From Nocardioides sp. Soil774 (GTDB taxonomy: Bacteria > Actinomycetota > Actinomycetes > Propionibacteriales > Nocardioidaceae), in contig NZ_LMSM01000001.1 of the NCBI RefSeq assembly GCF_001428125.1, forward strand, positions 373,306 to 437,305: 64,000 bases of DNA, read 5' to 3'. The notes under the pieces are model-generated. The model saw nothing but the letters and a program-made list of their open reading frames with translations, did no database searches and was not told the DNA's origin. Of the stretch, positions 15,155 to 31,405 are shown in pieces. A program made the translations under genes and the position numbers. Position 1 is the first letter of the stretch; each line of letters starts with the position of its first letter.

Positions 15155-16372
15155 ATGACGACGATCGTGTCGCCCCCAGTGATCACTCGCACCGACGGCG
15201 TACCCGTGCCGTTCGCGCACTGCGAGATCGTCGTCGAGGCCCGCGAGGCGGCCGCCAAGGTGCTGCAGTCGGGCTGGTTGACCACGGGGCCGGAGGTGCT
15301 GGCCTTCGAGTCGGACTTCGCAGCCCACGTGAATGCCTCGCACGCGATCGCAGTCTCGTCCTGCACGGCAGCGATCGAGCTGGCGCTCCGGTCCCTGGGG
15401 CTGCCGCCGGGTGCCCCGGTGTTGACGTCCGCCAACACGTTCTGTGGCGCTGTGCACGCCATCCTCCATGCCGGACTGCGCCCTGTGCTCGTCGACGTGG
15501 ACCACCTGACCGGCATGCCGACGGAGGCCACCACCCGGGATGCCGCCAGCTCGTGCGGAGGCCCGGCAGCCATGGTCGTCACGCACTGGGCCGGCGACCC
15601 GGCCGACGTGGCGATGCTCGCCCGGGCGGCGGGGCTTCCCCTCGACAGCGTGGTCGAGGACGCCGCGCACGCCATCGGGAGCCAGCACGGCGGCCTGGCG
15701 GTGGGCCAGGGCACGACGGTCTGCTTCAGCTTCTACGCCACCAAGAACCTTCCGCTCGGGGAAGGGGGGATGGTGACCACCAGCAACGATGCGCGTGCGG
15801 ACTGGATCCGACGCGCTCGACTGCACGGCATGTCGTCTGACGCCTGGCGTCGCTACCTGCCGGGTGGGCGGTGGCGCTACGACGTCGCCCAGGAAGGCTT
15901 CAAGGCGAACATGACCGACCTGCAGGCAGCGATGGGCCGCGCGCAGCTCAGGTACCTCGACGGATGGCAGCGCCGGCGCTCGGAGCTGGCTTCCCGATAC
16001 GACGAACGGCTCGGGTTGCTCGAGGGCGTCGTCCTCCCACACCGCCCGAGTGCACCGGGCAGCAAGCACGCCTGGCACCTGTACGCGATCCAGCTGCTCC
16101 CCGGCGCGACACCCGGCCGTGACGCGGTCGCCGACGCCCTTGCGGACCGATGCATCGGCACGTCCGTCCACTTCATTCCCATCCATCACCTGAGCTGGCT
16201 GAGCACCTCGGTCGACATCTCGCCGGGCGGACTCCCCGGAGCAGACCGGATGTTCTCCCGCGTGCTCTCGCTCCCCCTCTACCCGCAGCTCAGCGACCAG
16301 CAGGTCGACGCCGTCTGCGACGCCATCAGCACATGTCTCACCCGCAGCACCACGACAGGATCGACACAATGA
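15155..16372 (+). CDS. DegT/DnrJ/EryC1 family sugar aminotransferase
   Basis: A 405-residue PLP enzyme of the sugar aminotransferase family, which adds an amino group to a 4-keto (or 3-keto) nucleotide sugar using glutamate. The PLP lysine is probably K197 in FYATKNLPLGEGG, and EDAAHAIGS carries the conserved Asp/His. ATG 15155 follows GAGAGAGG with good spacing. Its stop overlaps the ATG of the 4,6-dehydratase, so the pair probably makes a UDP-4-amino-4,6-dideoxy sugar of the bacillosamine type for the polysaccharide. First gene of the EPS operon. Confidence 0.9.
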   Translation: MTTIVSPPVITRTDGVPVPFAHCEIVVEAREAAAKVLQSGWLTTGPEVLAFESDFAAHVNASHAIAVSSCTAAIELALRSLGLPPGAPVLTSANTFCGAVHAILHAGLRPVLVDVDHLTGMPTEATTRDAASSCGGPAAMVVTHWAGDPADVAMLARAAGLPLDSVVEDAAHAIGSQHGGLAVGQGTTVCFSFYATKNLPLGEGGMVTTSNDARADWIRRARLHGMSSDAWRRYLPGGRWRYDVAQEGFKANMTDLQAAMGRAQLRYLDGWQRRRSELASRYDERLGLLEGVVLPHRPSAPGSKHAWHLYAIQLLPGATPGRDAVADALADRCIGTSVHFIPIHHLSWLSTSVDISPGGLPGADRMFSRVLSLPLYPQLSDQQVDAVCDAISTCLTRSTTTGSTQ

Positions 16373-17913
16373 CCGAGCTCATCTCCCCACTCCAGACCAT
16401 CACGCCGCTGGTCGCGCAGGAGCGGCCCTCCGCGACGTCGATACCCAGGCAGCGCAGGGCGAATCCGTCGTTGCGTGCCCTGATCATCGGCGCGGGGTCC
16501 GCCGGACTCGCGCTCGCCCGGGACCTCCAACGAGTCGACTCCTTCGGGCTCGCGCCCATCGGATTCCTCGACGACGACGAACGCAAGTTGGGCACGTGCC
16601 TGCGGGGACAACCGGTCCTCGGCCGCCTCGACGACCTCGAGACCGTGCTCGACCAGACCAAGGCGGATGCCGTGGTCGTCGCCATTCCTTCGATGTCGCA
16701 CGCCGACATCCAGCGACTCGGCCTGCGTGCTGCGGCGTACGGGGTGACAGTCAGGCACCTTCCGCCCTTCTTGGCCGCTCTCCAGCGTGACATCGCCGGC
16801 ACCGACATGCGGAGCCTGCAGGTCGGCTCGCTCATCGGACGCCAGGAGATGCACGTGGTGAGCCGCGGTGCCTCGGAGGTCATCACGGGCAAGCGGGTCC
16901 TGGTGACGGGTGCCGGTGGATCGATCGGCAGCGAGCTCTGCCGCCAGGTGCGGGGCTTCGAGCCGGCCGAGCTGATCATGCTCGACCACGACGAGTCGAA
17001 CCTCCACCGGCTCCAGCTCGACCTCTGGGGAGAGGCGCTCCTCGACACGGACAGCATCGTGGTCGCGGACATCCGGGACACCAAGCGGATCCGCCAGGTC
17101 TTCCGCGACCACCAGCCCGACGTCGTGTTCCACGCAGCAGCGCTCAAGCACCTCCCCGTGCTCGAACGTCACCCCTGCGAGGGCGTGAAGTCGAACGTCA
17201 AGGGCACCCAGAACCTCGTCGAGGCCGCCATCGCACACGGCGTCGAGCGGTTCGTCCTGATCTCCACCGACAAGGCGGCCAACCCTGCCTCCGTCCTGGG
17301 CGCCACCAAGCGGCTCGCGGAGCTGGTGCTCGAGGGCTACCAGTCCACCCCGACCAAGTTGTGCGCCGTCCGGTTCGGCAACGTCCTGGGCAGTCGCGGG
17401 TCCCTCCTCCACGTGATCCGGGAGCAGCTCGCGTCCGGGTCGGACGTCACCGTGACCCATCCCGACGTGACCCGCTTCTTCATGACGATCGAGGAGGCGG
17501 TCGGCCTCGTCCTCGAGGCGGCCCGGATGGTGGATGACTCCGCCACCTACATCCTCGACATGGGCGAGCCGGTCAGGATCGTCGACCTCGTGCAGAACTT
17601 CGCGGACCTGCTCAACGTCCGGGACGTCACGTTCCGGTTCACCGGCCTCAGGCCGGGCGAGAAGCTGGACGAGGAGCTCTTCGGGATCGGCGAGGAGGAG
17701 CTGCCCACCGATCACCCGAGGATCTCGAAGGTGAACGCCTTGATGCCGCTCCACGGGTTCCGCGCGCAGCTCCACGAGCTCTACGAGGCGGCCTCGCACA
17801 ACCGGCCGGACGAGGTGCTGGACCACCTGCGCCGGCTGGTGCCCGAGTACCACCCCACTCCGCGCCTCGTCCCTCCGCTGGTCTCGACCGCTCCCTACCC
17901 GGACGACTACTGA
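16369..17913 (+). CDS. UDP-sugar 4,6-dehydratase, CapD/FlaA1-like, without membrane anchor
   Basis: A 514-residue polysaccharide biosynthesis protein. An N-terminal Rossmann region (IIGAGSAGLALARDL) precedes the SDR dehydratase domain with GAGGSIG at 181-187. Typical CapD/WbpM proteins start with four membrane segments; none are present, so this is a soluble form. The active-site stretch reads STDKAANPASVLGATKR: the lysine is kept, but the family's usual Met (or Tyr) four residues before it is Leu. It would form a UDP-4-keto-6-deoxy-hexosamine from UDP-GlcNAc. Coupled to the preceding aminotransferase. Confidence 0.88.
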   Translation: MTELISPLQTITPLVAQERPSATSIPRQRRANPSLRALIIGAGSAGLALARDLQRVDSFGLAPIGFLDDDERKLGTCLRGQPVLGRLDDLETVLDQTKADAVVVAIPSMSHADIQRLGLRAAAYGVTVRHLPPFLAALQRDIAGTDMRSLQVGSLIGRQEMHVVSRGASEVITGKRVLVTGAGGSIGSELCRQVRGFEPAELIMLDHDESNLHRLQLDLWGEALLDTDSIVVADIRDTKRIRQVFRDHQPDVVFHAAALKHLPVLERHPCEGVKSNVKGTQNLVEAAIAHGVERFVLISTDKAANPASVLGATKRLAELVLEGYQSTPTKLCAVRFGNVLGSRGSLLHVIREQLASGSDVTVTHPDVTRFFMTIEEAVGLVLEAARMVDDSATYILDMGEPVRIVDLVQNFADLLNVRDVTFRFTGLRPGEKLDEELFGIGEEELPTDHPRISKVNALMPLHGFRAQLHELYEAASHNRPDEVLDHLRRLVPEYHPTPRLVPPLVSTAPYPDDY

Positions 17914-17947: not shown

Positions 17948-19402
17948 ATGACCGCTGAATTCGTGCCCCCAGACGTCCGCGTCTTCGCCAGCACCGCGTC
18001 CTCTGCCACGGTGTTCGACGACTCCAGCCTGCTGCCGGCAGACCGTGCCTCGTTGACGGAGCTGGAGCGGCTGGTCGCAGGCGCCGACCTCGCGGCGCCT
18101 CCGGTCGTCCTCCCTGACTTCCACCACAAGTCGAAGATGGAGCTGCCTTCGAGCGTCACCGTGGCCACCCATCGCTCGGTGCGTCCCGACCTGACCGGGT
18201 CCTCGGTGAACTGCGGGATGGCGCTGATCGCCCTCGAGTCGGAGGTGCCGGACGACCGGGCCGTGGACACGTTCATGCGCTCCGTCCGCGAGCGCTACCC
18301 CTATCCGACGCGCGGCCAGAAGGAGCTGACCGCTCGCGAGGTGGTTCGTGCCGCGGACGAGGGCGCGGAGTTCGCGGTGGAGCGATGGGGTGCACCCCCG
18401 GACGACCTCGAGCGGGTCGAGGAAGGTGGACGCCTGGACCTGGACCGCTACGGCGGCATCGACCGCCTGACCCGGGAGCTGCCGGGTTTCGCGATCCAGC
18501 TGGCCAGGTTCAGGTTCGGGACCGTCGGGCCCTCCAACCACTTCGTCGAGCTGCAGCGCGTGGAGGAGGTGTACGACGAGGAGCGCGCGGCACTCCTCGG
18601 CGTCCGAGAGGGGCAGCTGACCATCCAGTACCACGGCGGTGGCGGCGTCCTGGCCGGGGAGCTCGGCCGGCTGTTCTTCCGCAGGAAGGACTACCCGCGC
18701 CAGATCAAGGCCGTCAACGCGGCCCTCAAGCCGTGGTTCCACCTCCGCTCGGCGCGGTCCATGCAGCAGCTGCGTGAGCGGCTCAACCTCTACTTCGCAG
18801 ACGGCTGCACGCCGGTGCCGATCGACAGCGCGGAAGGGCAGCGCCTCATGCTCGCCAACGCGGCGGCCATGAACTACGGCTTCGCGTTCCGGACCTCCAC
18901 CTACGCGTCGCTGCGCCGGCTGGCGGCTGAGGCGTTCGGTGGGGCCACCGGGCGGCTGGTCGTGGACTCGCCACACAACAGCATCTACGAGGAGCCCGTC
19001 GGTGACACGACGGGCGTGGTGCACCGCCACAATTCCTGCCGGGCCTTCTCGGCCGACATGATGACGCCGGGAACGACGTTCGCGCAGACGGGTCAGGCGG
19101 TCCTCGTCCCCGGCACGCACCGAACGTCGAGCTACCTCGGAGTCGCAGGCGACGACGCGGCCGACAGCCTCTACTCAGCCTGCCACGGCTCCGGGAGCGT
19201 CGTGTCCGACCTCGTGGGCCGCGGGCTGTCGGCCGAGCACGCCGACCGTCACTCGACCCGTCGCTTCCGCTACTCCGACGCCGAACCCACCGACGTGGCG
19301 CACTACGACGACAACGGCGTCAACGCAGCCATGGACGTCCTGGTCCGCAACAGGCTCGTGCGCCCAGTCGCGCGCATGCGCCCCATCGCAGTCCTGCATT
19401 AG
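17948..19402 (+). CDS. Divergent RtcB-like protein within the EPS locus
   Basis: A 484-residue protein with the block order of RtcB RNA ligases: PDFHHKSK (56-63), NCGM (88-91), GTVGPSNHFVE (191-201), H229 in YHGGGG, MNYGFAFR (308-315), H343 in SPHN, HRHNSCRAF (359-367), VPGTHRTSSY (387-396) and ACHGSG (411-416). RtcB joins 2',3'-cyclic phosphate and 5'-OH RNA ends through a guanylylated histidine; H413 matches that residue. Most metal ligands are kept (C89, H198, H229, H343), but the first Asp ligand is Ser (S86) and the Arg after the HSGSR-type motif is lost. The location among sugar genes suggests a non-tRNA role. Activity is uncertain. Confidence 0.8.
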   Translation: MTAEFVPPDVRVFASTASSATVFDDSSLLPADRASLTELERLVAGADLAAPPVVLPDFHHKSKMELPSSVTVATHRSVRPDLTGSSVNCGMALIALESEVPDDRAVDTFMRSVRERYPYPTRGQKELTAREVVRAADEGAEFAVERWGAPPDDLERVEEGGRLDLDRYGGIDRLTRELPGFAIQLARFRFGTVGPSNHFVELQRVEEVYDEERAALLGVREGQLTIQYHGGGGVLAGELGRLFFRRKDYPRQIKAVNAALKPWFHLRSARSMQQLRERLNLYFADGCTPVPIDSAEGQRLMLANAAAMNYGFAFRTSTYASLRRLAAEAFGGATGRLVVDSPHNSIYEEPVGDTTGVVHRHNSCRAFSADMMTPGTTFAQTGQAVLVPGTHRTSSYLGVAGDDAADSLYSACHGSGSVVSDLVGRGLSAEHADRHSTRRFRYSDAEPTDVAHYDDNGVNAAMDVLVRNRLVRPVARMRPIAVLH

Positions 19403-19430: not shown

Positions 19431-22400
19431 ATGAAGACACTCCCGCGCACCTCGCTGGGCCTGGCCCTGCTGCTCGTCAGCTCCGTGCTGCTCGCCCTCA
19501 ACGCGGCCCCCGCGTCGGCGGCTGGGACGACGTACTGGGTCGACGCCGCCTCGGCACAGTGCACGGACGCGGGAACAGGACTCGAGACTGCCCCGTTCTG
19601 CACGATCTCGGCTGCCGCGAAGAAGGCCCTGGTCCCCGGGGACACCGTGCGGATCCGACCGGGGACCTACCGCGAGCAGGTCACGCTGGCGGGTTCCGGG
19701 ACGACGGGCGCCCCCATCAGCATCCTGGGGGACGGACCGGGCGTCGTCGTGCTGGGAACCCGTGCCCTCGGGACAGCGGGACTGTGGTCATCCACGGGCA
19801 CCACGGCGTGGAGCACGCCGTACGCACCGCCCTCCAACCCCCGTCAGGTCCTCCTGGACGGTCAGCGGCTCAGCCAGGCGGCCTCCGCCAGCACCACCAC
19901 GGCCGGGAGCTGGTTCTACGACACCACGGCTCGGGTGCTCTACGTGGACATCGGCGGCGCGAACCCGGGAGACGGGCACGCCGTCGAAGCCGGTGCACAG
20001 TCCTACGGCGTCCACGTGAGCGGCCGCCACGACGTGGTCGTGAGCGGGCTCCTCACCCGCGACCAGAACTTCGCAGGCGTCCGCCTGCTCTCCTCCTCCG
20101 CGGTGACCGTCGAGCAGGTCAGGGCCACGGGGTCGGCCGCCAACGGCGTCCTCGTCGAGTCCAGTCCCGGCTCCGGCGTGATGGTGCGCGACGTGGACGT
20201 CTCCGACTCCCTCGCTGTGGGCATCCGACTGACAGGGTCCTCCGGCGTCACCGTCCGGGCATCCCGCAGCCACGGCAACCAGCTCCACGGGATCGCCCTG
20301 GCCACGTCGAGCAACAACGTGATCTCGGGCAACCAGACGTTCGACAACGCCTCGCTCCGGGCGGACGTGACCGCTGCCGGGATCGACGTGAACTCCAGCT
20401 CGACGGACAACGTCGTGGCTAACAACGTGACCCATGGGAACCAGGACTCCGGCATCCAGGTCTACAACGGTTCCCACCGCGCCCTCCTCCTGCGCAACGT
20501 CTCCTACGGCAACGGGGACCACGGGCTCGACACGCTCGGCTCCACGCAGGTGCGTCTGGTCAACAACACCGTCCACGGCAACCGGCACGATGGCATCTCG
20601 GTCGAGGGCTCGGCGACCGGCGCGACGCTGACGAACAACATCATGGTCGACAACGGCCGGGTGGACAGGGGGAGTGACGTCCCGCACTTCGACCTCTTCG
20701 TGGACTCCGCGTCCACGGTTGGTTTCTCCTCCGACTACAGCATCGCCTACAAGGGATCGGCCGCTGCGGTGGTGATGTTCGGCGGAACCCAGTACAAGAA
20801 GCTCAACCTGTTCGCGTCAGCCACGGGCAACGAGGCGCACGGGCTCGCACTGGACCCGGACCTCGTCGACGTCGCAGCCGGCGACTTCAGGCCCACACCC
20901 GGCTCTCCCGCCGTCGACTCGGCGAATGCAGGCGCCAACGGATTCAGCGCCACGGACGCCGCAGGGAACGCCCTCGCGGACGACTCCATCGTCCCGGACA
21001 CCGGCGTCGGCTCACCGTCGTACGCCGACCGCGGCGCCCTGGAGATGCAGCCCGGTCAAGGCGCCGGAAACTACGCGCCGCACGCCGCACTCTTCCTCAG
21101 CCCGTCGTCGGTCAGCCGCCCGCCGTCGACGCCGGTGACGGCAGACGCGACCGGCTCCTCCGACGGCGACGTCTCCGGCATCGCCGGCTACACCTTCGAC
21201 TTCGGCGACGGCACGGTCGTCGGCCCGCAGCCCGAGCCGACGGCGGCGCACTCCTACGGGCGAGCCGGGACCTTCACCGTCACGGTCACCGTGACCGACA
21301 ACGCCGGCCTCGACGATGTCGCCACGGCGCTGGAGTCGGTGACCGACCGTCCCTTGCAGACCTACCGGGTCGCGGGCTCCGACCCGACGTGCAGCGATGC
21401 TGCGAGCGGCACGGCCGCGGCACCACTGTGCACGATCTCGGCGGCCACGACGCGTGCGCTCGCCGGGGACACCATCCTGGTCGGCGACGGGACCTACCGA
21501 GAGCAAGTCAGGGTGCCGAACAGCGGCGAGGCGGGTGCGCCCCTGACCGTGCGTGCGACGAGCGGCAACGCCGTCATCCTGGGCTCGAACGACGTCACGG
21601 ACCCCGCCGCCTGGACCGGTACGGCGACCTCCGCGTGGAAGCGTCAGTACCTGCCGACCGCCCCTCCCACCCAGGTCTGGCTGGACGGCACCCGGCTGGC
21701 GCGCGCCTCGAGCGCGACGACGACCACCGCCGGTAGCTGGTTCTACGACAGCGCGACCGGCCTGCTGTTCGTCGACATCGGCGGCGGCAATCCCGGCCTC
21801 GGCCACGCAGTGGCCGCAGGTGCGCGCAACTTCGGGATGCTGCTGCGGGCGGTCGACCACATCGACGTCGACGGGTTCACGATCCTCCAGACGAACCTCG
21901 CCGGCCTGTTCCTCGATACCGTCCGCGACGTCGACGTGAGCAACCTGCGCGTGGAGGAAGCCGGGACCCACGGCGTCACGGCCGACGGATCGACGCGCGT
22001 CCAGCTCAGCAACCTGGTATCCAGGAAGAACCTGTCCATGGGGGTGCGCTTCTTCCAGTCATCTGACAGCGTCCTGCGCAGTGCCACCACCGACCACAAC
22101 CAGTTCCACGGCGTGAGCGTGCAGGGGAGCCGAGGCGTGCGCGTGGCCGACGTGACGTCGTTCAGCAACGACCGCCCTGATGCGCGGGTCGCCGCAGGGA
22201 TCGATGTCAGCTCCTCCTCCGTGGACACGATCATCGAGCGGACGACGACCTACGGCAACGACGACTCCGGGATCGAGGCCTACACGGGGTCCACCGGCAC
22301 CGTGATCCGCCGGAACCTCAGCTACGACAACGGCGACCACGGCATCGACAACTCCGGTGCACCGGGCTCCGTCGTCGTCTCGAACACCGTGGTCGGCAAC

Positions 22401-23663
22401 GAGACGGCCGGTATCAACTTCGAAGGAGGGTCGCGCGACGCGTTCGTCCGCGACAACGTGACCGCCGACAACGCCGTGGGCAGCACCCGCACGATCGGCG
22501 AGATCCGGGTCGACGAGTCGTCGGCGCCGGGAACCAGCCTCAACCGTGACCTCGTGTTCCAGTCGTCGGGCGGACCCCTCTTCGAGTGGGCCTCGCAGGC
22601 CCACACCACGCTGACGAGCTTCCAGGCGGCCAGTGGGCAGGAGCAGGACGGACTGGCTGGTGACCCGAGGTTCCTCGACCTCGCGGGGCGTGACCTCCGC
22701 CTGACGGGATCGTCGCCCGGAGTCGACGCGGCATTCACCGAGTTCGCCGCCTGGCTCCCGGTCGACCTCGCCGGGAAGCCGGTGGTGGACGACCCGGCCG
22801 TGCGCGACACGGGCAACGGGACGCAGCCGTTCGGTGACCTCGGCGCCTACGAGTTCTCCGGCCCGGTCGCCATCGGCACGGTGTCCCCCACGAGCGGTGC
22901 CACACCTCTGGCCGTCTCGGTGGACGCCAGCGCGAGCCGCGGGCTCGGCTCCCCGATCGTCACCTGGCGGTGGGACTGCGGGAACGGCACCTCGGTGGAC
23001 CAGGCCGTCGGAACCTGCACGTACACGGTCGCGGGGAGCTACACGCTCACTCTCGTCGTCACCGATGGCACCGGCCTGTCGGACACCTGGCGCGGTGGCG
23101 TGTCAGCGTCCAACGAGTTCGCGCCGGTGGCCTCCCTCACCGCCTCGCCGGGCTCGGCCTACACCCCTCAGGCCGTCGTGCTGGACGCCTCCGGCTCGCG
23201 GGACTCCGGGGACACCTCGCCGATAGCGGACTACCGGTTCGACTGCGGCAACGGCACGGTCACGGCGTGGCAGACCTCCTCGAGGACCACGTGCACCTAC
23301 ACGAAGGCGCAGAGCTACACACCGTCGGTGGAGGTCCGCGACACCGGCGGTCGCATCGGATCGGCACGCACGACCGTCACCATCCTGGCCGACGTCCCGC
23401 CCACGGCCTCGCTCACGCTGCCCGCCAAGGGCGTGGTCGGCAAGGCCGTCACCGCCGACGCGTCCAAGTCCAGCAGTGGCGTCGACAAGAGCCCGATCGC
23501 CACCTACCGCTTCGACTGCGGCAACGGCCAGGTGACCGTCGAGCAGACCGCGCCGACGACGAGCTGCACCTACCGGAGCAGGGGCACATTCACCGTGACA
23601 GTGAGGGTGACCGACACCGTTGGGCTCTTCGCCGTCGCATCGAAGAAGATCAAGATCGGATAG
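19431..23663 (+). CDS. Large secreted parallel beta-helix protein with PKD domains
   Basis: A 1410-residue exported protein. A Sec signal peptide covers about residues 1-31 and ends PASAAG. Residues about 33-540 form a DUF1565-type right-handed beta-helix, and a PKD domain (about 546-638) follows. A second, homologous beta-helix (about 640-1140) repeats the same opening (APxCTISAA, GTYREQV), and three PKD domains (about 1142-1225, 1229-1315, 1322-1410) end the protein, each with a WDCGNG or FDCGNG variant. Beta-helices of this kind bind or cleave polysaccharides (lyase, epimerase, depolymerase), and PKD modules give cell-surface display. The duplication is clear; catalytic residues are not. 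Confidence 0.88.
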   Translation: MKTLPRTSLGLALLLVSSVLLALNAAPASAAGTTYWVDAASAQCTDAGTGLETAPFCTISAAAKKALVPGDTVRIRPGTYREQVTLAGSGTTGAPISILGDGPGVVVLGTRALGTAGLWSSTGTTAWSTPYAPPSNPRQVLLDGQRLSQAASASTTTAGSWFYDTTARVLYVDIGGANPGDGHAVEAGAQSYGVHVSGRHDVVVSGLLTRDQNFAGVRLLSSSAVTVEQVRATGSAANGVLVESSPGSGVMVRDVDVSDSLAVGIRLTGSSGVTVRASRSHGNQLHGIALATSSNNVISGNQTFDNASLRADVTAAGIDVNSSSTDNVVANNVTHGNQDSGIQVYNGSHRALLLRNVSYGNGDHGLDTLGSTQVRLVNNTVHGNRHDGISVEGSATGATLTNNIMVDNGRVDRGSDVPHFDLFVDSASTVGFSSDYSIAYKGSAAAVVMFGGTQYKKLNLFASATGNEAHGLALDPDLVDVAAGDFRPTPGSPAVDSANAGANGFSATDAAGNALADDSIVPDTGVGSPSYADRGALEMQPGQGAGNYAPHAALFLSPSSVSRPPSTPVTADATGSSDGDVSGIAGYTFDFGDGTVVGPQPEPTAAHSYGRAGTFTVTVTVTDNAGLDDVATALESVTDRPLQTYRVAGSDPTCSDAASGTAAAPLCTISAATTRALAGDTILVGDGTYREQVRVPNSGEAGAPLTVRATSGNAVILGSNDVTDPAAWTGTATSAWKRQYLPTAPPTQVWLDGTRLARASSATTTTAGSWFYDSATGLLFVDIGGGNPGLGHAVAAGARNFGMLLRAVDHIDVDGFTILQTNLAGLFLDTVRDVDVSNLRVEEAGTHGVTADGSTRVQLSNLVSRKNLSMGVRFFQSSDSVLRSATTDHNQFHGVSVQGSRGVRVADVTSFSNDRPDARVAAGIDVSSSSVDTIIERTTTYGNDDSGIEAYTGSTGTVIRRNLSYDNGDHGIDNSGAPGSVVVSNTVVGNETAGINFEGGSRDAFVRDNVTADNAVGSTRTIGEIRVDESSAPGTSLNRDLVFQSSGGPLFEWASQAHTTLTSFQAASGQEQDGLAGDPRFLDLAGRDLRLTGSSPGVDAAFTEFAAWLPVDLAGKPVVDDPAVRDTGNGTQPFGDLGAYEFSGPVAIGTVSPTSGATPLAVSVDASASRGLGSPIVTWRWDCGNGTSVDQAVGTCTYTVAGSYTLTLVVTDGTGLSDTWRGGVSASNEFAPVASLTASPGSAYTPQAVVLDASGSRDSGDTSPIADYRFDCGNGTVTAWQTSSRTTCTYTKAQSYTPSVEVRDTGGRIGSARTTVTILADVPPTASLTLPAKGVVGKAVTADASKSSSGVDKSPIATYRFDCGNGQVTVEQTAPTTSCTYRSRGTFTVTVRVTDTVGLFAVASKKIKIG

Positions 23664-23676
23664 GGACGAGCAGCAG

Positions 23677-24969
23677 ATGACCATCGAGGAGATCTTCCGG
23701 CGCATCGTCAGGGGACACGTCGTCCTGATCCTGCTCTGCTGCGTGCTGCCCGTGGGCGCCGCGCTCGTCGTGAACGCCACCCGGCCCACGGAGTACGTCG
23801 CTCGCGTGCGGCTCCAGGTCACCTCGTCCGCCCCGGCATCCACCACTGAGGCGGAGGCGCTCAGCTCCCGCGTCCTGGCCCTGGCCAGCACCCCGAGCCT
23901 GGTCCGCCAGGCCCTCAAGTCCGAGGGCCTGGACGGGGATGCGGAGAAGATCGCCGCGGAGGACGTCACCGCGGAGCGCCTGGGGGAGTCGCCCGTGGTG
24001 CAGCTCGCCGTGAGGCAGCCGACATCGGCGAGCGCAGCTGACCTCGTCGGCGCACTCGCCACCCAGGTGACCGAGTTCATGAACCAGGCCACCCGCAGCA
24101 GGTACGACGCACTGCTGACCGACACCGAGCGTCGGCTCACGGCAGCCGGATTCCGCAGGGACACGCTCACCGGACAGCTGCAGGAGACGACCGGCCCACA
24201 GGCGCGCGAGCTCCTCCGGATCGAGCTCGCGTCGAACCAGCAGACCGTCGAGCAGCTCTCCCAGCAGCGTCTCTCCCTCCTGCTCGCGGACGCCGAGCGC
24301 GACGACGTCGTCCTCATCGACGCGGACGCTCCCGACGTCGACGTCGTGGCGTCAGGACTCGTGCCACGCGCCGCTCTCGCGCTGCTGTTCGGGCTGGTCC
24401 TGGGGCTCAGCCTGGCTGTGCTGGTGGAGACACTGCGTCCGCGTATCGCCGGCGTTCGCGCGCTGGCCCGTTCGCTCGACGCTCCTGTCCTGGGCACGGT
24501 GACCGACGGGAGCGCACCGCTCTCCGCCGCGATGACCGTTGCCGCACGGCGGCAGGGCGTCGAGACCCTCGTCCTGGTCGGGATGGACGATCGGGACGAC
24601 AAGGCCGTGCGCGAGCTCCTCGAGGAGATGCCGAAGGGACGGCTCTCCCACTCGTCCGCATCCGCGGCGCTCAGCCGCGAGCTCGCCACCATGGAGCAGG
24701 AGGGCGGAGGCGGACGGGCCGGCAAGGCGGGCCCTGCGCCGCGCCCGCCGTCCCAGTCGGCCCCCGTGCTGTCCCACCAGGTGCGCTTCACGGACGTGCA
24801 CGGCCTCACCGACAGCGAGGAGCCCACGGCGGGCGTCGTCGTCGTGACCCACGGCACGGCCCTCCAGCGCGAGATGGACTCCCTCGACGACCTCCGCCAG
24901 GCGCGGCGGTGGCCCGTCGTCGGGATCGTCGAGGTCCCCCGACGACCCATCCGAGGGGACCGGCAATGA
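23677..24969 (+). CDS. Wzz-like polysaccharide co-polymerase with degenerate kinase domain
   Basis: A 430-residue membrane protein. Two transmembrane segments (about 14-33 and 230-252) flank an extracytoplasmic region rich in heptad-like helices, the layout of Wzz/PCP chain-length regulators. The C-terminal cytoplasmic part (about 255-430) follows the position of a BY-kinase, with SLDAPVLGTV and VVVVTHGT strands, but no Walker A motif or tyrosine-rich tail is present. It probably sets chain length together with Wzy. ATG 23677 follows 13 bp after the beta-helix gene, and the stop overlaps the HprK-like gene. Confidence 0.8.
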   Translation: MTIEEIFRRIVRGHVVLILLCCVLPVGAALVVNATRPTEYVARVRLQVTSSAPASTTEAEALSSRVLALASTPSLVRQALKSEGLDGDAEKIAAEDVTAERLGESPVVQLAVRQPTSASAADLVGALATQVTEFMNQATRSRYDALLTDTERRLTAAGFRRDTLTGQLQETTGPQARELLRIELASNQQTVEQLSQQRLSLLLADAERDDVVLIDADAPDVDVVASGLVPRAALALLFGLVLGLSLAVLVETLRPRIAGVRALARSLDAPVLGTVTDGSAPLSAAMTVAARRQGVETLVLVGMDDRDDKAVRELLEEMPKGRLSHSSASAALSRELATMEQEGGGGRAGKAGPAPRPPSQSAPVLSHQVRFTDVHGLTDSEEPTAGVVVVTHGTALQREMDSLDDLRQARRWPVVGIVEVPRRPIRGDRQ

Positions 24970-25994
24970 GCACCGACGGCATCCTCCTGGAGAGCGCAGG
25001 GCAGCGGCTGGTCGTGTGCGACCCCCGGGGCAGGCTCGCGGCCGCCATGACGTCTGCGGCAGGAACGACGTTCGCGGAGGCGCACCCGAGGACAGGCCTC
25101 CCCGACATCGTCGAGCACGTCGAGACGGGCCGACGTGGCTTCTCCACCGCCGAGATGAGCCCCGTGACTCGGGGAGTGTGGGCCGACGACGCCGGCGACA
25201 CGGTCGTCGAGAGTGTCGGCGGGTCGGGTTTCACCCAGCACTGGTCGGTGGACGACGACCGTCTCCGGATCCGCACGCGATGGGCGCCGTCCCCCGCGGA
25301 GTCTGCGGCCGCCTCGCTCCTCCGTCCGCGGTTCGACGCCCTCCGGGCCCAGGTGCTGCTCCACTACCCGGTGCTGTGGTGGGCCGTCGTGAAGGGCATG
25401 GCGCCGCTCCACGTCTCGCTCCTCGAGGTGGACGGCATCAACGTCCTGATGGCCGGACCCGGCGGGGTGGGCAAGTCGAGCCTCGTCGCCCGAGAGCTCG
25501 CTGCGGGCGCCAGCGCCGTGTGCGACAACCTGGCCGCCTCCGACGGGTGGACCGTCCACGGCGTGAGGGAGTCCCTCCGGTTGCCGGCCGAAATGGCGTC
25601 TGGCGCCGGCGGCAGGAGGACCACCCACGGACGCCGGGAAGAGCGATGGCACGGACGGGTGGACTCCCTGCGCCCTGACGTCGTCGTGGTGGTCAGTCGC
25701 GGGCAGGCGCCGTCGGCGACGGTCCGGCCGATCGCCCCGGAGGAGGCCCGTCACGCGCTCGTCGCCGGCACGTTCGGCGCTGGGGAGCTGCGTCGGTTCT
25801 GGTCGCTGGCAGCGATGCTGTCGCTCGGCACGCGACGCGGCCCGGCGGTCGCGCCGGTCGAGGCGGTCGCAGGGACGTTGACGCAGCGCCTCCCGTGCTT
25901 CCGCCTCGACCTGGGCGCCCGCCCCGGACCCCCGCTGCGCGTCCTGCTCGCCGACCAGCTCCTCCAGCTCGGCAGCGAAGGGGTCGGCCGATGA
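24966..25994 (+). CDS. HprK-like serine kinase domain protein
   Basis: A 342-residue protein with a P-loop GPGGVGKSS at 164-172, preceded by HVSLLEVDGINVLM in the style of HPr kinase/phosphorylase C-terminal domains. HprK-related proteins in actinobacteria and proteobacteria occur outside the sugar-PTS context, for example beside lasso-peptide and exosortase/PEP-CTERM loci. No HPr or PqqD-like partner is seen here, so the target is unknown. It overlaps the Wzz-like gene (4 bp) and the GT4 gene (4 bp), so it is translated within the EPS operon. Confidence 0.75.
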   Translation: MSTDGILLESAGQRLVVCDPRGRLAAAMTSAAGTTFAEAHPRTGLPDIVEHVETGRRGFSTAEMSPVTRGVWADDAGDTVVESVGGSGFTQHWSVDDDRLRIRTRWAPSPAESAAASLLRPRFDALRAQVLLHYPVLWWAVVKGMAPLHVSLLEVDGINVLMAGPGGVGKSSLVARELAAGASAVCDNLAASDGWTVHGVRESLRLPAEMASGAGGRRTTHGRREERWHGRVDSLRPDVVVVVSRGQAPSATVRPIAPEEARHALVAGTFGAGELRRFWSLAAMLSLGTRRGPAVAPVEAVAGTLTQRLPCFRLDLGARPGPPLRVLLADQLLQLGSEGVGR

Positions 25995-27157
25995 CCACGG
26001 ACACGCGTATCCACGTCGCCCAGGTCGTGACCCGGTTCATCGCAGGAGCGGGCGGAGTGGCGTTGCGGGGCGCCATGCACCTCGATCCCGACCGATACCG
26101 CGTCACGATCGTCACGGGAGAGGGCGGGCGCCTGACTGAGATGGCCGCGCTCGCGGGGATGAAGGTGATCATCGAGCCGTCCATGGTGGCACCCATCAAT
26201 CCCCGGGAGGACGCGACCGCCCTGCGCAGGCTCGTCCGGATCTGCCGTGACGAGCAGTTCGACGTCGTTCACACGCACAGCGCCAAGGCCGGTGCCCTCG
26301 GGCGGCTGGCAGCGCACCGGGCGGGCGTGCCGGTGATCGTGCACACCTATCACGGTTTCCCGTTCCATGACTTCCAGGACGCGGTCCATCACGCTGTCTA
26401 CGTCGGCATCGAGCGTCGGCTCGCCCGGATAACGGACGTCGTCCTGGCCATCGGCACGGGTGTCGCGACCGAGGCCTTGCGGCGGGGCCTGGCCCGTCCG
26501 TCAGCCCTGCGGACCGTGCCGCCCGTCGTGGACGGCCGTACGGTCCTGAAGGACGCGACGACCACCGCGGCCGCCCGTGTCGCGCTCGGGTTGTCGCCCG
26601 ATGCCACGGTGGTCGGCACGGTGGGCCGCGTCGACTACCAGAAGGCCCCCGAGCACTTCGTCGCCGCCATCAAGTCGATGCAGCACCGCGAGGCGGTCGG
26701 GCTGTGGATCGGCTCGGGGCCCGAGGTGGACGGGATGCGTCGACTCGTCGGCGAGCTGGGGCTGCGCGAGCGCATGCTTTTCGTCGGCGAACGGGACGAC
26801 GTGGCGGCGCTCCTGCCAGCGTTCGACGTCTTCGCCATGGCGAGTCGCTACGAGGGACTGCCCTGCGCCATGGTCGAGGCCATGCGCTGCGGCCTCCCGG
26901 TGGTGGCCACGGCCGTCAACTCGGTCCCCGACCTGGTGGTCCCCGGAGAGAGTGGCGTGCTGGTGCCAGCGGGGCGCCCGCATGCGCTCGCGCGAGCACT
27001 GGACGACCTCCTCGACCACCGGCCGACGGCCGATCGGCTGGCGTTGGAGGGCCAGGTGCGCGCCGGTGCGCCCTTCGACGCACAGCGGCTCTCAGACGTG
27101 CTCGACGAGGTCTACTCCGAGGCCCTTGCCGCAAGCCTCCTCGCGGCGGTGGGATGA
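25991..27157 (+). CDS. Glycosyltransferase family 4
   Basis: A 388-residue retaining GT-B glycosyltransferase. The N-terminal acceptor domain has VVHTHSAKAGALGRLAA and TYHGFPFHD; the C-terminal donor domain has VGTVGRVDYQKAPEHF and the E-x7-E motif EGLPCAMVE. It would add a sugar from a nucleotide donor to the lipid-linked repeat unit at the cytoplasmic face. It is the only clear extension glycosyltransferase in the locus, so the repeat unit may be short or other transferases lie elsewhere. The start ATG overlaps the HprK-like stop. Confidence 0.9.
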   Translation: MTTDTRIHVAQVVTRFIAGAGGVALRGAMHLDPDRYRVTIVTGEGGRLTEMAALAGMKVIIEPSMVAPINPREDATALRRLVRICRDEQFDVVHTHSAKAGALGRLAAHRAGVPVIVHTYHGFPFHDFQDAVHHAVYVGIERRLARITDVVLAIGTGVATEALRRGLARPSALRTVPPVVDGRTVLKDATTTAAARVALGLSPDATVVGTVGRVDYQKAPEHFVAAIKSMQHREAVGLWIGSGPEVDGMRRLVGELGLRERMLFVGERDDVAALLPAFDVFAMASRYEGLPCAMVEAMRCGLPVVATAVNSVPDLVVPGESGVLVPAGRPHALARALDDLLDHRPTADRLALEGQVRAGAPFDAQRLSDVLDEVYSEALAASLLAAVG

Positions 27158-27160
27158 CCG

Positions 27161-27700
27161 ATGAACCGCCGTCAGCTCGACCGAGTGACCAGGACCGTCC
27201 GCGTCGTGCGACGGGCGGGCGCCCAGGAGCAGCCTGAGGGCCCCTTCACAGGCGAGCCGGCGCGGGCGGTGGGACCCCGGGGTCGTGCCACCCGGGCTCG
27301 GTGGGCGGGGGCGCCCTGGCTGGCGCTGTGCGACGAGGACGCTGTCGAGATCCGCGACCCGAGGGTCGAAGACATTCGGAGGGTCGCCCCCGGCACCACC
27401 GTGGTGCTGGTCTGCGACGAGCCGTTGAGCCGGTGGCGCCTGCGTCGGCTCGCGGCTCGAGCCGGCATGGCGATCGAGCGCGAGCTGATCGCCGTGCCCC
27501 ACACCCGCAGTCCTGTCGTGCTGCTCGACGAGACGGAGTCCGCTGTCACCCACTTCTGGAGCGACGTGATCACAGTGCCGCCCGGCCTCACGCTCGCCCT
27601 GGTTCCCGCATCGGTGGTGCTGCGACTGGCCCGGATGCTGCCGTGGCGTTGGACGGGAGCGCTGGCCCCGGGGCGCGTCGTGATCGGGAGGCGTTCATGA
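27161..27700 (+). CDS. Hypothetical protein of the EPS operon
   Basis: A 179-residue protein not confidently recognised. After a basic N-terminal 50 residues, alternating strands and helices follow (PGTTVVLVCDEP, RRLAARAGMAIERELIAVP), somewhat like the last third of a Rossmann methyltransferase, but no SAM-binding glycine motif is seen. Two hydrophobic stretches occur near the C-terminus. ATG 27161 is 3 bp after the GT4 stop; an ATG at 27154 leads to a different short frame. Its stop overlaps the APH-like gene. Confidence 0.65.
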   Translation: MNRRQLDRVTRTVRVVRRAGAQEQPEGPFTGEPARAVGPRGRATRARWAGAPWLALCDEDAVEIRDPRVEDIRRVAPGTTVVLVCDEPLSRWRLRRLAARAGMAIERELIAVPHTRSPVVLLDETESAVTHFWSDVITVPPGLTLALVPASVVLRLARMLPWRWTGALAPGRVVIGRRS

Positions 27701-28719
27701 CCGCGTGGCCAGATCCAGCCGCGCGTGGCGGACGCCGACTCGAGGACCTGCTCGCGCGGCCGGACATGTGCGGCGTGCTGATGACCGCCTCGAAGGACCC
27801 CGACGCCAAGCTCACCTACATCACGACCACGAACACGGGAGCCGAGAGGGTCGCCGTGAAGATCCCGACCACCTCGCGGGCGGGGCTCGCCGTCGAACGC
27901 GAGGGTCGGATGCTCGTGGACCTGAGACGTCTGGGACTCGGCCGGATCAGCAGCACCGTGCCGAGGTACGTGAGTTCGCTGCACGTCCAGGGACGACCCG
28001 TGCTCGTGTCCTCCGCCGTGGCAGGCACGCCGATGAGCGTGGCGTACCACCGTGGGCTGCACACCGCACGACCCGGCCTCGTCCGTGCGGACCTCGATCT
28101 CGCGCTGGGCTGGCTGCGAGAGCTCTGGGACGTCTCGCAACGCGGCGACGCCGCGCTCACCTGGGCGCGGGACACGGCCGCCGGGCTCTGCGGGAGGTGG
28201 GACGGCCATCCCTCCCTGGAAGCGGCGCTCAGCCGGCTGGAGATGGTCGAAGGGAGGATGTCCGGCCTGCACTGCACCCAGACCGCCGTGCACGGCGACT
28301 TCTGGTTCGGCAACGTCCTCGTCGACCACGGCACGGTGACCGGAGTCGTCGACTGGGAGGCCGGATCGACGGTGGGGTGCCCGCTGCGCGACCTGGCTCG
28401 GTTCGCCATCAGCTACAGCCTGTACCTCGACCGCCACACGCGCCCCGGCGCCAGGGTCCTCGGGCATCGCGGGTTGCGGCGTGACGGTGCAGCCCCCGGC
28501 GTGACCTACGCGCTCGAGGGCGACGGATGGTTCTCCGGCGCCGTCCGGTCCTTCCTCGCCGACGGGCTCACCGCCCTCCGGCTGCCCCGTTCGCTGTGGT
28601 ACGACGTCGCGTTGGTCGGTGTCGCCGAGGTGGCCGCGTCGGCGAACGACGACGGCTTCGGAGAACGGCACCTCGAGCTGCTCTCCGGGCTCGCCCTCCG
28701 GCCGCGTCGGCGCCGGTGA
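27697..28719 (+). CDS. Aminoglycoside phosphotransferase-like kinase
   Basis: A 340-residue protein with a kinase-like fold. The catalytic loop is HGDFWFGNVLVD (about residues 199-210) and the metal-binding motif is VVDWEAG a few residues on, both intact. VAVKIP near residue 52 provides the ATP-anchoring lysine. In a polysaccharide locus the likely target is a sugar, choline or alcohol group and not an antibiotic. It overlaps both neighbours by 4 bases, so it is firmly part of the operon. Confidence 0.8.
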   Translation: MTAWPDPAARGGRRLEDLLARPDMCGVLMTASKDPDAKLTYITTTNTGAERVAVKIPTTSRAGLAVEREGRMLVDLRRLGLGRISSTVPRYVSSLHVQGRPVLVSSAVAGTPMSVAYHRGLHTARPGLVRADLDLALGWLRELWDVSQRGDAALTWARDTAAGLCGRWDGHPSLEAALSRLEMVEGRMSGLHCTQTAVHGDFWFGNVLVDHGTVTGVVDWEAGSTVGCPLRDLARFAISYSLYLDRHTRPGARVLGHRGLRRDGAAPGVTYALEGDGWFSGAVRSFLADGLTALRLPRSLWYDVALVGVAEVAASANDDGFGERHLELLSGLALRPRRRR

Positions 28720-30044
28720 GCGACATGACCTCCCCCCTGCACGAGACGGTTGCGCGGCCGGCGGCTCTCGGCCCCGGTGGCCGTCCGGCGCGGCAGGCGC
28801 AGGACGTGCTGCCCGCCCTGGTGGGAGGAACGGTGTGCCTCCTGCCGATCCTGACCCCGGCGGGACCCGGGAACACGGCACTGGCCGACGTCGGCATGGC
28901 CGCATCCGTGGTCGTGGCCCTCATGTGGGCGACCCGGGAGCGGTTCCAGCTCAAGTTCCCCTACATCCTGGGCACCCTCCTCCTCGTGCTCGGTGGTGGG
29001 CTGGCGGCCCTGACGGCCTCTGCGCCACCCTCGGTGGCGCTCGTCCTGGTCCAGGACGCCGTCCTGTTCCTCTGGGCGGCCACCCTCGCGCTGGGACGGC
29101 ACAACGTCGCGATCATCACCGCGGCCACCCACGCGTGGTGCCGGACCGCCCCGGTGTTCGCCGGGGTGATGGTCGTCGCCTACCTGATCGGTCTCGACGC
29201 GCTGACCGGCGTCTCGGCGCGTGACGGGGTTCGAGCCTCCTACACCCTGGGCGACCCGAACCTGGCCGCCAACTACCTGGTCGTCTCGCTGGTCCTGATG
29301 GCTGCCTGCCGACGTCCGCGGTCTGCAGGGGTGCGTCACACCGGATACGCGCTGGTCCTCCTCGCCATCGTGTTCACCGGCTCCAACGGAGCGATGTTCA
29401 CGCTGCTGATCGCGGTCGTGCTCTGCCTCGCGCTCAGCCAGCTTCGTCGGCGTGGCGCGCTCGCTGGAGCTCTCGTCCTGATGGTCACTGCGCTGTTCGC
29501 AGCGGTCCTGGTCCTCGTGGTCATGCCTCGCGTGGACATGCAGTCGCTCCGGGAGCAAGCTGCAGGCAGCATCCCGCTCCTGCGCGACTCCTTCGGCCGG
29601 AGCGCGGGGTCGACGAGCCAGCGGGCCACGATCCTGTCCGAGGGAACGCAGCTCTTCCTCGACGGCAACGCCACGGGTGTCGGTCCGGCCCGTGTCAAGG
29701 CCACGCTCGAAGCGACCCAGGCTCCCTACACGAAGGAGGCCCACAACGACTACCTCGCGACTCTCCTCGAGCGAGGGGTGATCGGGGCGATCGGCCTGAT
29801 CGCGCTCGTGGCCGCCATAGGTGTCCGTTGCGTGCGACTGGTCATCGGGACGGTGCCAGCGCCGTACTCGGACGCGGTGCCACGCGCGTGGCTGCTGGCG
29901 GTCCTGGCTCCGGTGATGGCCACGGCGGCCACGTTCTACGAGGTGCTGCACTTCCGGCACATGTGGACCTGGCTGGGCATCGTGGCGGCGCTGGTGCTCG
30001 CGCTGCAGGACCAGCACCGGGCGGGCGGGGAGGACGTGCCATGA
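28716..30044 (+). CDS. O-antigen ligase/polymerase-like membrane protein (Wzy)
   Basis: A 442-residue protein with about 10-12 hydrophobic segments. A large extracytoplasmic loop (about residues 270-350) contains the Wzy_C-type signature GVGPARVKA and EAHNDYLATLLERGVIG. It would polymerise the repeat units on the outer face of the membrane. GTG 28716 overlaps the previous stop (GTGA); ATG 28725 is an alternative. The C-terminus overlaps the Wzx gene. Between them they indicate a Wzx/Wzy-dependent pathway. Confidence 0.85.
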   Translation: MSDMTSPLHETVARPAALGPGGRPARQAQDVLPALVGGTVCLLPILTPAGPGNTALADVGMAASVVVALMWATRERFQLKFPYILGTLLLVLGGGLAALTASAPPSVALVLVQDAVLFLWAATLALGRHNVAIITAATHAWCRTAPVFAGVMVVAYLIGLDALTGVSARDGVRASYTLGDPNLAANYLVVSLVLMAACRRPRSAGVRHTGYALVLLAIVFTGSNGAMFTLLIAVVLCLALSQLRRRGALAGALVLMVTALFAAVLVLVVMPRVDMQSLREQAAGSIPLLRDSFGRSAGSTSQRATILSEGTQLFLDGNATGVGPARVKATLEATQAPYTKEAHNDYLATLLERGVIGAIGLIALVAAIGVRCVRLVIGTVPAPYSDAVPRAWLLAVLAPVMATAATFYEVLHFRHMWTWLGIVAALVLALQDQHRAGGEDVP

Positions 30045-31405
30045 CCGCGCGGACGACAGGTCTGGTGACACGCGCGCGCTCTGTCCTCAAGGGGGACCTC
30101 GCGGGCAGTGTCGTGAGAAACACCTCCGCCCGGGGCATCGCCATCGTCGGACTCACCCTCGCGACGGTCGTCGTCGCCCGTGTCGGAGGGCCTGACGACG
30201 TGGGGGCATACGCCCTGCTCCGCATGCTGCCCGGTCTCGTCGGCGTGATGGCCGTCGCCGGTCTCCCCGGCGCCATGGCGTTCTTCCTGGCCGAACCGCG
30301 TCGGCACCGCACCGCGTTGTGGCCCAGCGTGTTCGTGGTGCTGGCGGCCGGTGCTGCGCTCGGCACCCTCGCCTGGGTGCTGATCAGTCCGCTCCTCAAG
30401 CACGCCTTGTTCCCGCACGACTCGTTGCTCGTGGTGGCCGCGGCGGGGCTCACTGTCGCCACGCAGCTGGTGCTCACCGTGGGCAAGACGTCCTTGCAGG
30501 GGCTGCAGGACCGGCGTGGCGGCGACATCGTGATCGCCGCCGAGGAGATCGCCTTCCTGCCCTGCTACCTCCTACCGCTGCTGCTGGGGGTGCAGGGCAC
30601 GACCGCCATCATCGTCGGCCTGCTCCTGGCCGACGTGGTCGTCGCCGTCGAGGCCTGGCGCCGCGTCGCCCACCGGCTCGGATGGCGGCGGCTTCGCGCC
30701 GCGCGTTCGGCCCGTCGGAGGGCGGGGCCGGACCGGCAGTTGGTGGGTCAGCTGGTGGTGTACGGCTTGCGGGGCCAGGTCGGGGGCATCATCACCCTGC
30801 TGAACCTACGGGTCGACTTCGTCATCCTCGGCGCGGTGGCGGGGCCGGCCGTGCTCGGCATCTACGCTGTCGCCTCCAAGTACGCCGAGCTGCTCCGCAT
30901 GCCCGGGACCGCCCTCACGTGGGTCTGCTACCCCAGGCTCGCCGCCACCGACGAGGAGACGGCCGCCAGGATCGCTCGCCGCCTGGTGGCCCCGACGCTC
31001 GCGACCATCGGGCTGGCCGCGGTTCCCCTGTGGCTGGTCGCCGGACCCGTCACGCGGCTGCTGTACGGCACGGAGTTCGACTCCGCCGTGGCGCCGGCCA
31101 GGGTCCTGCTCGCCGGGATGCTGCTCGCAGGCACGGCAGGCGTCGCCAGCGGATACCTCTACGGCCGCGGCCGTCCCGGCCTCAACTCCGTGGCGATGGC
31201 CTTCGGGCTGGTGACGACCGTCGGTCTCGACCTCGTCCTCATCCCGAGGTTCCAGGCCATGGGCGCCGCTGTCGCGTCCACGGCTTCCTACCTGCTCGTC
31301 GACGCGATCCTGGTGCTCCTGCTGCTGCGGCTGACCTCGCGCCGTGCGCGCCGCGACGTCCACGCCGACGACGCCCCCCGTGCCGCAGTGGGGGCCTCGC
31401 CGTGA
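30041..31405 (+). CDS. Polysaccharide flippase (Wzx/MOP superfamily)
   Basis: A 454-residue protein with about 12-14 transmembrane segments in the arrangement of the oligosaccharide flippase family. Family-like segments include VGGPDDVGAYALLRMLPG near the N-terminus and VRVDFVILGA-type membrane helices in the middle. It would move the undecaprenyl-linked repeat unit to the outer leaflet. ATG 30041 overlaps the Wzy stop, and the stop overlaps the lipoprotein GTG. A basic C-terminal tail follows the last helix. Confidence 0.87.
   Translation: MTARTTGLVTRARSVLKGDLAGSVVRNTSARGIAIVGLTLATVVVARVGGPDDVGAYALLRMLPGLVGVMAVAGLPGAMAFFLAEPRRHRTALWPSVFVVLAAGAALGTLAWVLISPLLKHALFPHDSLLVVAAAGLTVATQLVLTVGKTSLQGLQDRRGGDIVIAAEEIAFLPCYLLPLLLGVQGTTAIIVGLLLADVVVAVEAWRRVAHRLGWRRLRAARSARRRAGPDRQLVGQLVVYGLRGQVGGIITLLNLRVDFVILGAVAGPAVLGIYAVASKYAELLRMPGTALTWVCYPRLAATDEETAARIARRLVAPTLATIGLAAVPLWLVAGPVTRLLYGTEFDSAVAPARVLLAGMLLAGTAGVASGYLYGRGRPGLNSVAMAFGLVTTVGLDLVLIPRFQAMGAAVASTASYLLVDAILVLLLLRLTSRRARRDVHADDAPRAAVGASP

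Follow-up and report, generated by a model that had tools for sequence, protein, structure and literature searches.

RtcB ligases and their described relatives

In the literature covered here, RtcB is an enzyme of RNA (and of DNA ends). Excerpts of PMC10630183 describe two metals in P. horikoshii (Ph) RtcB, metal 1 being held by Cys98, His234 and His329 and contacting the alpha-phosphate, and metal 2 being held by Asp95, Cys98 and His203 and contacting the gamma-phosphate. They also state that RtcB itself opens the 2′,3′-cyclic phosphate, and that RtcB paralogues with capping activity are on record. Myxococcus RtcB3, named as a 5′-phosphate capping enzyme in the title of a paper cited by PMC10630183, is an RtcB paralogue like the protein described below and transfers GMP to a phosphate, although its substrates are nucleic acids. 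According to excerpts of a second paper, each of the substitutions D65A, D95A, N202A, H203A, F204A, E206A, H404A and K480A inactivates Ph RtcB when the enzyme acts alone (PMC3973293). Archease restored ligation by the K480A, E206A and F204A enzymes, and K480A with Archease and ATP gave about twice the product of the wild type; D95A with Archease regained guanylylation of the 3′-phosphate but not ligation (PMC3973293).

In a survey of the openly licensed literature on RtcB and polysaccharide, made by titles and abstract openings, we found no report of an RtcB clade associated with exopolysaccharide (EPS) genes. The RtcB fold and superfamily to which the EPS-cluster clade described here belongs are already known.

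An RtcB-like protein with an altered active site

The window analysed here is a stretch of 64,000 nucleotides from Nocardioides sp. Soil774 (contig NZ_LMSM01000001.1, positions 373,306 to 437,305), and coordinates are counted from its first letter. An ORF at 17948-19402 on the + strand encodes a protein of 484 aa from an ATG start. The PF01139 match over residues 53-483 scored 161 bits (E=7e-47; cut-off 27), which places the protein in the RtcB superfamily, and its sequence matches among solved structures were nine in number and every one an RtcB, including TTHA1785, whose deposited annotation is hypothetical. An AlphaFold2 model, built with the alignment of 40 clade members described below, reached a pLDDT of 87.6. 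Foldseek returned 16 matches to this model at E<=0.001, all 16 of them RtcB chains (best E 3e-30), and VIA returned ten RtcB entries with Z 36-42 and rmsd 2.4-3.8 over 394-422 aligned residues; on the predicted model, the protein has the RtcB fold. Scores for TIGR03073 and PRK09588, the RtcB2-PrfH subfamily models that we take to be a marker of the PrfH-linked RtcB group, were below cut-off (46 and 74 bits, where 271.8 and 407 are required). The gene was also considered as a composition outlier, which was dropped at a GC of 0.70 against 0.71-0.73 in its surroundings. The ORF and the codons of interest are as follows.

17948..19402, + strand: EPS-cluster RtcB-like protein, 484 aa (PF01139, predicted fold, 45-row clade)
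18203..18205, + strand: S86 codon, position of Ph Asp95, a second-metal ligand according to excerpts of PMC10630183 (S in 38/45 and A in 7/45 clade rows; D in 38/38 others)
18212..18214, + strand: C89 codon, Ph Cys98, ligand of both metals (invariant in 83/83 rows)
18539..18541, + strand: H198 codon, Ph His203 (invariant in 83/83 rows)
18632..18634, + strand: H229 codon, Ph His234 (invariant in 83/83 rows)
18644..18646, + strand: G233 codon, position of Ph Arg238 in the HSGSR motif (G in 45/45 clade rows, R in 38/38 others)
18974..18976, + strand: H343 codon, Ph His329 (invariant in 83/83 rows)
19184..19186, + strand: H413 codon, Ph His404, the nucleotidylated His in RtcB (invariant in 83/83 rows)

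Alignment to Ph RtcB showed that the nucleotidylated His and its partner Asp65 are retained as H413 and D57, both invariant, and that the first metal site is retained as C89, H229 and H343. H198 is kept as well, and the second metal site is incomplete, Asp95 being replaced by S86 here and by Ser or Ala in all 45 clade rows. Arg238 is replaced by G233, and further replacements are K351 by H361, R408 by S417, K480 by H484, S237 by G232 and G352 by N362. The earlier note on this DNA had called the guanylylation histidine H413 and four metal ligands as kept, the first Asp ligand as Ser (S86) and the Arg of the HSGSR motif as gone, and these calls were right; the five further replacements are additional to those it named.

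A separate clade of RtcB proteins

Scanning of genome contigs yielded 48 loci, of which L002-L043 encode close relatives (51-79% identity) and L044-L049 encode other RtcBs (22-30%). The residue table compares 45 clade rows (43 distinct, L034/L063 and L038/L064 being identical pairs) with 38 rows of other RtcBs, which are a sample. L043, with two internal stops, was excluded from all counts; the partial L012 and L024 were excluded from the 40-member clade alignment A1 and the residue table and kept in the context counts, and L046, L048 and L049 were excluded from the residue table and the tree and used as context controls.

Seven positions divided the two sets completely. The Asp95 position holds Ser in 38 and Ala in 7 clade rows, the Ser237 and Arg238 positions hold Gly, Lys351 is His or Tyr, Gly352 is Asn or Lys, Arg408 is Thr, Ser or Ala, and Lys480 is Asn, His, Thr or Ser, in 45 of 45 clade rows in each case, whereas the Ph residue stands at every one of these positions in all 38 other rows. 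No clade row retains Lys480, which contacts guanine, or any of the conserved basic residues R238, K351 and R408, whereas 38/38 others have all four, and the seven changes, fixed in 45/45 clade rows and found in 0/38 other rows, are not due to chance. Asp65, Cys98, His203, Glu206, His234, His329 and His404 were kept in 83/83 rows and Asn202 in 82/83 (44/45 in the clade), and Phe204, F199 in the window protein, is invariant in A1; among the positions at which mutation inactivates Ph RtcB, Asp95 and Lys480 are therefore the only two not retained by the clade. A1 has 438 columns, 85 of them invariant, and the seven fully kept positions all lie among these 85 (hypergeometric p=8e-6).

In a tree from a quick search with the nine diagnostic columns removed, a single branch with SH-aLRT 100, of length 4.9 below the drawing root, split the 45 clade rows from the others. 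The RtcB-like protein of the window is thus shown to belong to a separate RtcB clade. The earlier note had anticipated a clade with Ser at the Asp95 position that co-occurs with EPS genes and lies apart from housekeeping RtcB, and such a clade was found, with Ser or in some members Ala at that position, in EPS clusters at 41/42 loci and distinct from another RtcB present in 18/36 genomes.

With the RtcB RNA ligases, namely P. horikoshii PH1602, human RTCB and T. thermophilus TTHA1785, the clade protein has in common the fold, the nucleophile His, the first-metal Cys and His residues, Asp65, Asn202 and Glu206; it differs from them in its low identity (22-26% in structure alignments), the seven replaced positions, the EPS context and the absence of Archease in 6/6 clade genomes. 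The short (~400 aa) RtcBs of actinomycetes (L060, L061, L096, L097) share PF01139 with it, and L060 and L061 share the same kept catalytic residues. However, full-length short RtcBs scored about 359-416 PF01139 bits compared to 131-175 for the clade, L060 and L061 carry the ordinary residues at all seven positions, and the four contexts of short RtcBs (L101-L104) contain no core EPS family, unlike clade loci.

Genomic context of the clade

The genes surrounding the RtcB-like ORF in the window are listed below, with the number of clade loci that contain each family where it was counted.

15155..16372, + strand: DegT/DnrJ/EryC1 sugar aminotransferase (PF01041 E=4e-93; family in 34/42 loci; start picked by the custom gene caller)
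16369..17913, + strand: nucleoside-diphosphate-sugar 4,6-dehydratase, PseB/FnlA-like (PF02719 E=3e-99; TIGR03589 under cut-off; family in 36/42 loci)
19431..23663, + strand: beta-helix and PKD protein, secreted-looking from an N-terminal hydrophobic stretch seen by eye (PF13229 E=4e-41, PKD; family directly downstream in 8/40 loci)
23677..24969, + strand: Wzz-like chain-length protein (weak matches under cut-off, PF02706 17.7 against 25.5 bits and EpsF 20 against 423; family in 32/42 loci)
24966..25994, + strand: HprK/PEPCK-fold P-loop protein, putative kinase (predicted structure; family in 36/42 loci)
25991..27157, + strand: family 4 glycosyltransferase (PF00534 E=5e-32; family in 36/42 loci)
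27161..27700, + strand: small recurrent protein (no Pfam match over cut-off; family in 26/42 loci)
27697..28719, + strand: APH-family kinase with HGDxWxGN and VDWE motifs intact (PF01636 E=1e-15; family in 28/42 loci)
28833..30044, + strand: Wzy/O-antigen ligase-like polymerase (PF04932 E=1e-17)
30041..31405, + strand: polysaccharide flippase (PF13440 E=4e-13)
31402..32475, + strand: recurrent protein of family 14 (8 loci; no Pfam match)
32540..33262, + strand: initiating sugar-phosphate transferase, Bac_transf (PF02397 E=4e-48)

With PF02397, PF13440 and PF04932 all over cut-off, the initiating transferase, flippase and polymerase of a Wzx/Wzy-type EPS cluster are present together in the window. 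The dehydratase (Polysacc_synt_2/PseB-FnlA type) ends 34 bp upstream of the RtcB-like ORF and the beta-helix/PKD gene starts 28 bp downstream of it, so the neighbours named in the earlier note, a sugar 4,6-dehydratase on one side and a beta-helix protein on the other, were borne out by Pfam matches.

For the HprK-like protein, the predicted model (pLDDT 91.7) matched PEPCK with Z 14.9 (rmsd 5.5, 274 aa) and HprK/P with Z 13.8 (rmsd 2.6, 133 aa), and its P-loop reads GVGKS. The window copy was below every named family cut-off in NCBIfam (13-29 bits) and Pfam (16.7). Among 21 HprK-like members, 15 matched TIGR04352 (HprK-related kinase A) and 18 matched TIGR04249 (ScmC) at E<=1, although the window protein, at 13 and 29 bits, is far under the respective cut-offs of 200 and 125. 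The small protein at 27161-27700 gave no confident family match in family-profile searches; by eye, the longer proteins of family 17 (L022, L026, L034 and L038) end with a stretch that resembles it. Families 13 and 14, the latter being the window gene at 31402-32475, recur near the cluster end, and some of them look glycoside hydrolase-like by eye. At 33235-34866 on the - strand, the window encodes a protein of 543 aa with metallo-beta-lactamase, SCP2 (Rv3818-like, under cut-off) and Rieske matches, a domain mix that presumably recalls CMP-sialate hydroxylase, and members of its family turned up at 8 loci, within or close to clade EPS clusters.

In order to compare contexts, genes were called with a custom script and the EPS gene families were turned into profiles, nine of which were taken as core families; 42 clade loci were counted, including the window and excluding L043. 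At least two of the nine core families were present in 41/42 clade loci, and at least four in 38/42. The one exception is L012, whose contig of 4.8 kb yielded just two gene calls, the RtcB-like gene and a beta-helix gene. In comparison, 25 of 26 control RtcB loci had no core EPS family and one, L117, had a single GT4-type match; these control contexts are a sample, and some contigs are short (four genes each on L045 and L048). Since the EPS profiles were built from the same clade loci, the clade counts describe that set and the controls form the independent part of the comparison. Five more whole-genome loci, L121-L125, contained 5 to 9 EPS families each, although at least L124 and L125 were already in the set, as their contigs have the same lengths as those of L034 and L038 and encode identical proteins. 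The clade is thus shown to occupy EPS clusters of a single kind, and the placement in an EPS operon proposed in the earlier note holds well beyond the window.

Gene order within the clade loci varies. The adjacent genes were on the same strand as the RtcB-like gene in 41/41 cases upstream and 40/40 downstream, and the median upstream gap was -4 bp. The gene immediately upstream was HprK-like in 18/41 loci, compared to the dehydratase in the window, and the gene immediately downstream encoded the small protein in 17/40 loci, compared to the beta-helix protein in the window. There was no sign of carriage by mobile elements in the plasmid and viral collections: the clade-type gene was not seen in the plasmid collection, where 14 records reached at most 29.5% identity, and of 11 stretches of viral contigs that fitted a pattern none was confirmed.

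Distribution and relation to other RtcB genes

The clade gene was found in 3 of 58 genomes in a sample of relatives (the window's own genome, G048 and G056), and the HprK-like gene was found in the same three. In a sample of the phylum, the clade gene was found in 4 of 296 genomes (>750 bits) and the HprK-like gene in 2 of those 4 (>400 bits), with a third weak match of 36 bits in G341; at most 5 RtcB and 7 HprK-like candidates were scored per genome in this sample, so misses are possible. The remaining 2 of the 4 loci do carry an APH-like gene. Isolates with the clade gene belong to Kribbella, Terrabacter, Terracoccus, Dactylosporangium and Nonomuraea, and the occurrences in Dormibacterota, Chloroflexota, Gemmatimonadota and Acidobacteriota come from metagenome bins. 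L040 and L041, with near-identical proteins and loci, were in bins labelled Thermoleophilia and Chloroflexi; one of the labels is probably a binning error, which indicates that such errors occur. The distribution of the clade is sporadic.

The earlier note had regarded the gene being the only RtcB of its genome as evidence against a dedicated EPS function. This is literally true of the window genome (99.85% complete), in which the RtcB-like gene is the only RtcB match, but it carries little weight at the level of the clade, because other genomes have both kinds of RtcB and 26 of the 58 genomes searched have no RtcB match of any kind. At least one further RtcB match was present in half of the 36 genomes that carry the clade gene (18 in all, 5/6 and 13/30; the second copy is fragmented in G121), where the 30 come from the 41 clade loci L002-L042 and some are perhaps of the same species. 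Among 36 same-genus genomes besides the window's own, 12 had an RtcB match, two of which (G025 and G036) were fragmentary or split; with RtcB so patchy in the genus, a genome without ordinary RtcB is not odd. In G036 (C1:1010641-1018526), same-strand matches to profile positions 1-328 and 326-426 are separated by about 6.8 kb, as if by an insertion, and in G025 (C1:704675-705016) the C-terminal third of RtcB alone matches, likely a gene remnant. The genome of L021, Dactylosporangium fulvum, has four PF01139 matches (550, 414, 256 and 153 bits), one of them intermediate, and the genome of L040 has another match of intermediate score (226 bits). An Archease profile found no match in six clade genomes, two of which are 62% and 82% complete, and was positive in 6 of 14 control genomes.

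Possible activity

We read the protein as an RtcB paralogue dedicated to EPS clusters, one that would not join RNA and may act as a His-nucleotidylyl transferase on a phosphorylated sugar, a lipid-linked sugar or a glycan, a reading to which we give an even chance. In such a reaction H413 would attack an NTP to form His-NMP, guanine being no longer enforced and ATP possible, and the NMP would then be passed to the phosphate of the sugar, lipid-linked sugar or glycan, a phosphate that may be supplied within the operon by the APH-family kinase, by the HprK/PEPCK-fold protein or by both. The product would be a sugar-PP-nucleoside or a nucleotide-capped glycan, and the later RtcB step, in which a hydroxyl attacks to give a phosphodiester, would probably be lost or reworked.

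The published mutants provide the analogy for this scheme. Since Asp95 and Lys480 are lost and the other residues on the mutant list are kept, the clade proteins would by analogy be fit for nucleotidylation of the His and transfer to a phosphate, and the same two losses would leave them unable to join ends and less dependent on guanine. The Ph D95A and K480A mutants are altered at the two positions that are naturally changed in the clade, which suggests that the clade proteins nucleotidylate but do not ligate and that their base pocket is relaxed, although, unlike the natural clade proteins, they are mutants of an archaeal enzyme that needs Archease for that activity. The earlier note had proposed a nucleotidyl transferase for a sugar or glycan, which agrees with both the residues and the kinase-like neighbours, the activity itself being a prediction from this analogy. 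It is a tentative proposal, which we rate somewhat below an even chance, that sugar phosphates supplied by the APH-family and HprK/PEPCK-fold proteins are nucleotidylated by the clade RtcB, or joined by it together with a partner; the chemistry of RtcB, in which a covalent His-nucleotide activates a terminal phosphate, would then have passed from nucleic acids to the assembly of glycans.

Several observations count against a transferase: the clade has mostly Ser and not the Ala of the Ph D95A mutant, the HprK-like window copy is under all named-family cut-offs, and ordinary nucleotide-sugar enzymes are already present in the cluster. The HprK-like match was also missing in 2 of the 4 phylum-sample genomes with the clade gene, which indicates that this protein is not always required. 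Since D95A and K480A are inactive without Archease, and Archease was absent from 6/6 clade genomes, a loss of activity is possible; perhaps the role of Archease is taken in the clade by other changes or by a partner, such as the HprK-like or the small protein.

A full RtcB cycle on glycans, in which a sugar phosphate is activated with a nucleotide and attacked by the hydroxyl of a second sugar to give EPS that is linked by phosphodiesters or cross-linked, would use the chemistry of RtcB together with two kinase-like operon partners, and the nucleophile and the first metal site are kept. We consider it unlikely, because Ph D95A with Archease guanylylates the 3′-phosphate and does not ligate (excerpts of PMC3973293), so that the last step of RtcB is the least likely to survive in the clade.

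It is more doubtful that the protein is still an RNA enzyme, whether one for the repair or capping of RNA or DNA ends or one that acts on the EPS message, or on an RNA tied to EPS production, as a control. The RtcB fold and the guanylylation residues are kept, the window genome has no other RtcB, and capping RtcB paralogues are on record in the excerpts of PMC10630183; against this, D95, S237, R238, K351, G352, R408 and K480 are all changed in 45/45 rows, another RtcB is present in 18/36 genomes, Archease is absent from 6/6, and the partners at 41/42 loci are glycan genes. We disfavour the suggestion in the earlier note that the protein regulates the EPS message: a residue required for ligation by Ph RtcB is gone, and nothing in the present data points to RNA.

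We give the same low standing to a metal-dependent phosphoesterase or cyclic-phosphodiesterase, which would trim a sugar that bears a phosphate or cyclic phosphate, or else a signalling nucleotide, through the kept metal site alone. Retention of the first metal site with loss of the second-metal Asp would be consistent with such an enzyme, as would the opening of the 2′,3′-cyclic phosphate by RtcB (excerpts of PMC10630183), but the nucleotidylated His and E206 are both invariant and have no obvious need in a hydrolase. The least probable alternative is that the protein is catalytically dead and regulates the polymerase or the kinase-like proteins as a scaffold or nucleotide sensor. The inactivity of Ph D95A and K480A without Archease (excerpts of PMC3973293), the absence of Archease from 6/6 clade genomes and the frequent position of the gene immediately after the HprK-like gene could be cited for it, but the other catalytic residues examined do not vary down to 51% identity, apart from N202 in a single row, which is unusual for a pseudoenzyme.

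Implications

A clade fixed in EPS clusters, with a ligand for ligation lost and the residues for nucleotidylation kept, suggests that the RtcB fold has been recruited to glycan chemistry. Counting PF01139 matches alone would miscall RNA repair in genomes with the clade gene, including that of the window, where it is the sole match. If the nucleotidylyl transfer to glycans proposed here is true, actinomycetes, Dormibacterota and other groups would possess, in this clade, a so far unrecognised way of making polysaccharide that is nucleotide-activated or linked by phosphodiesters.
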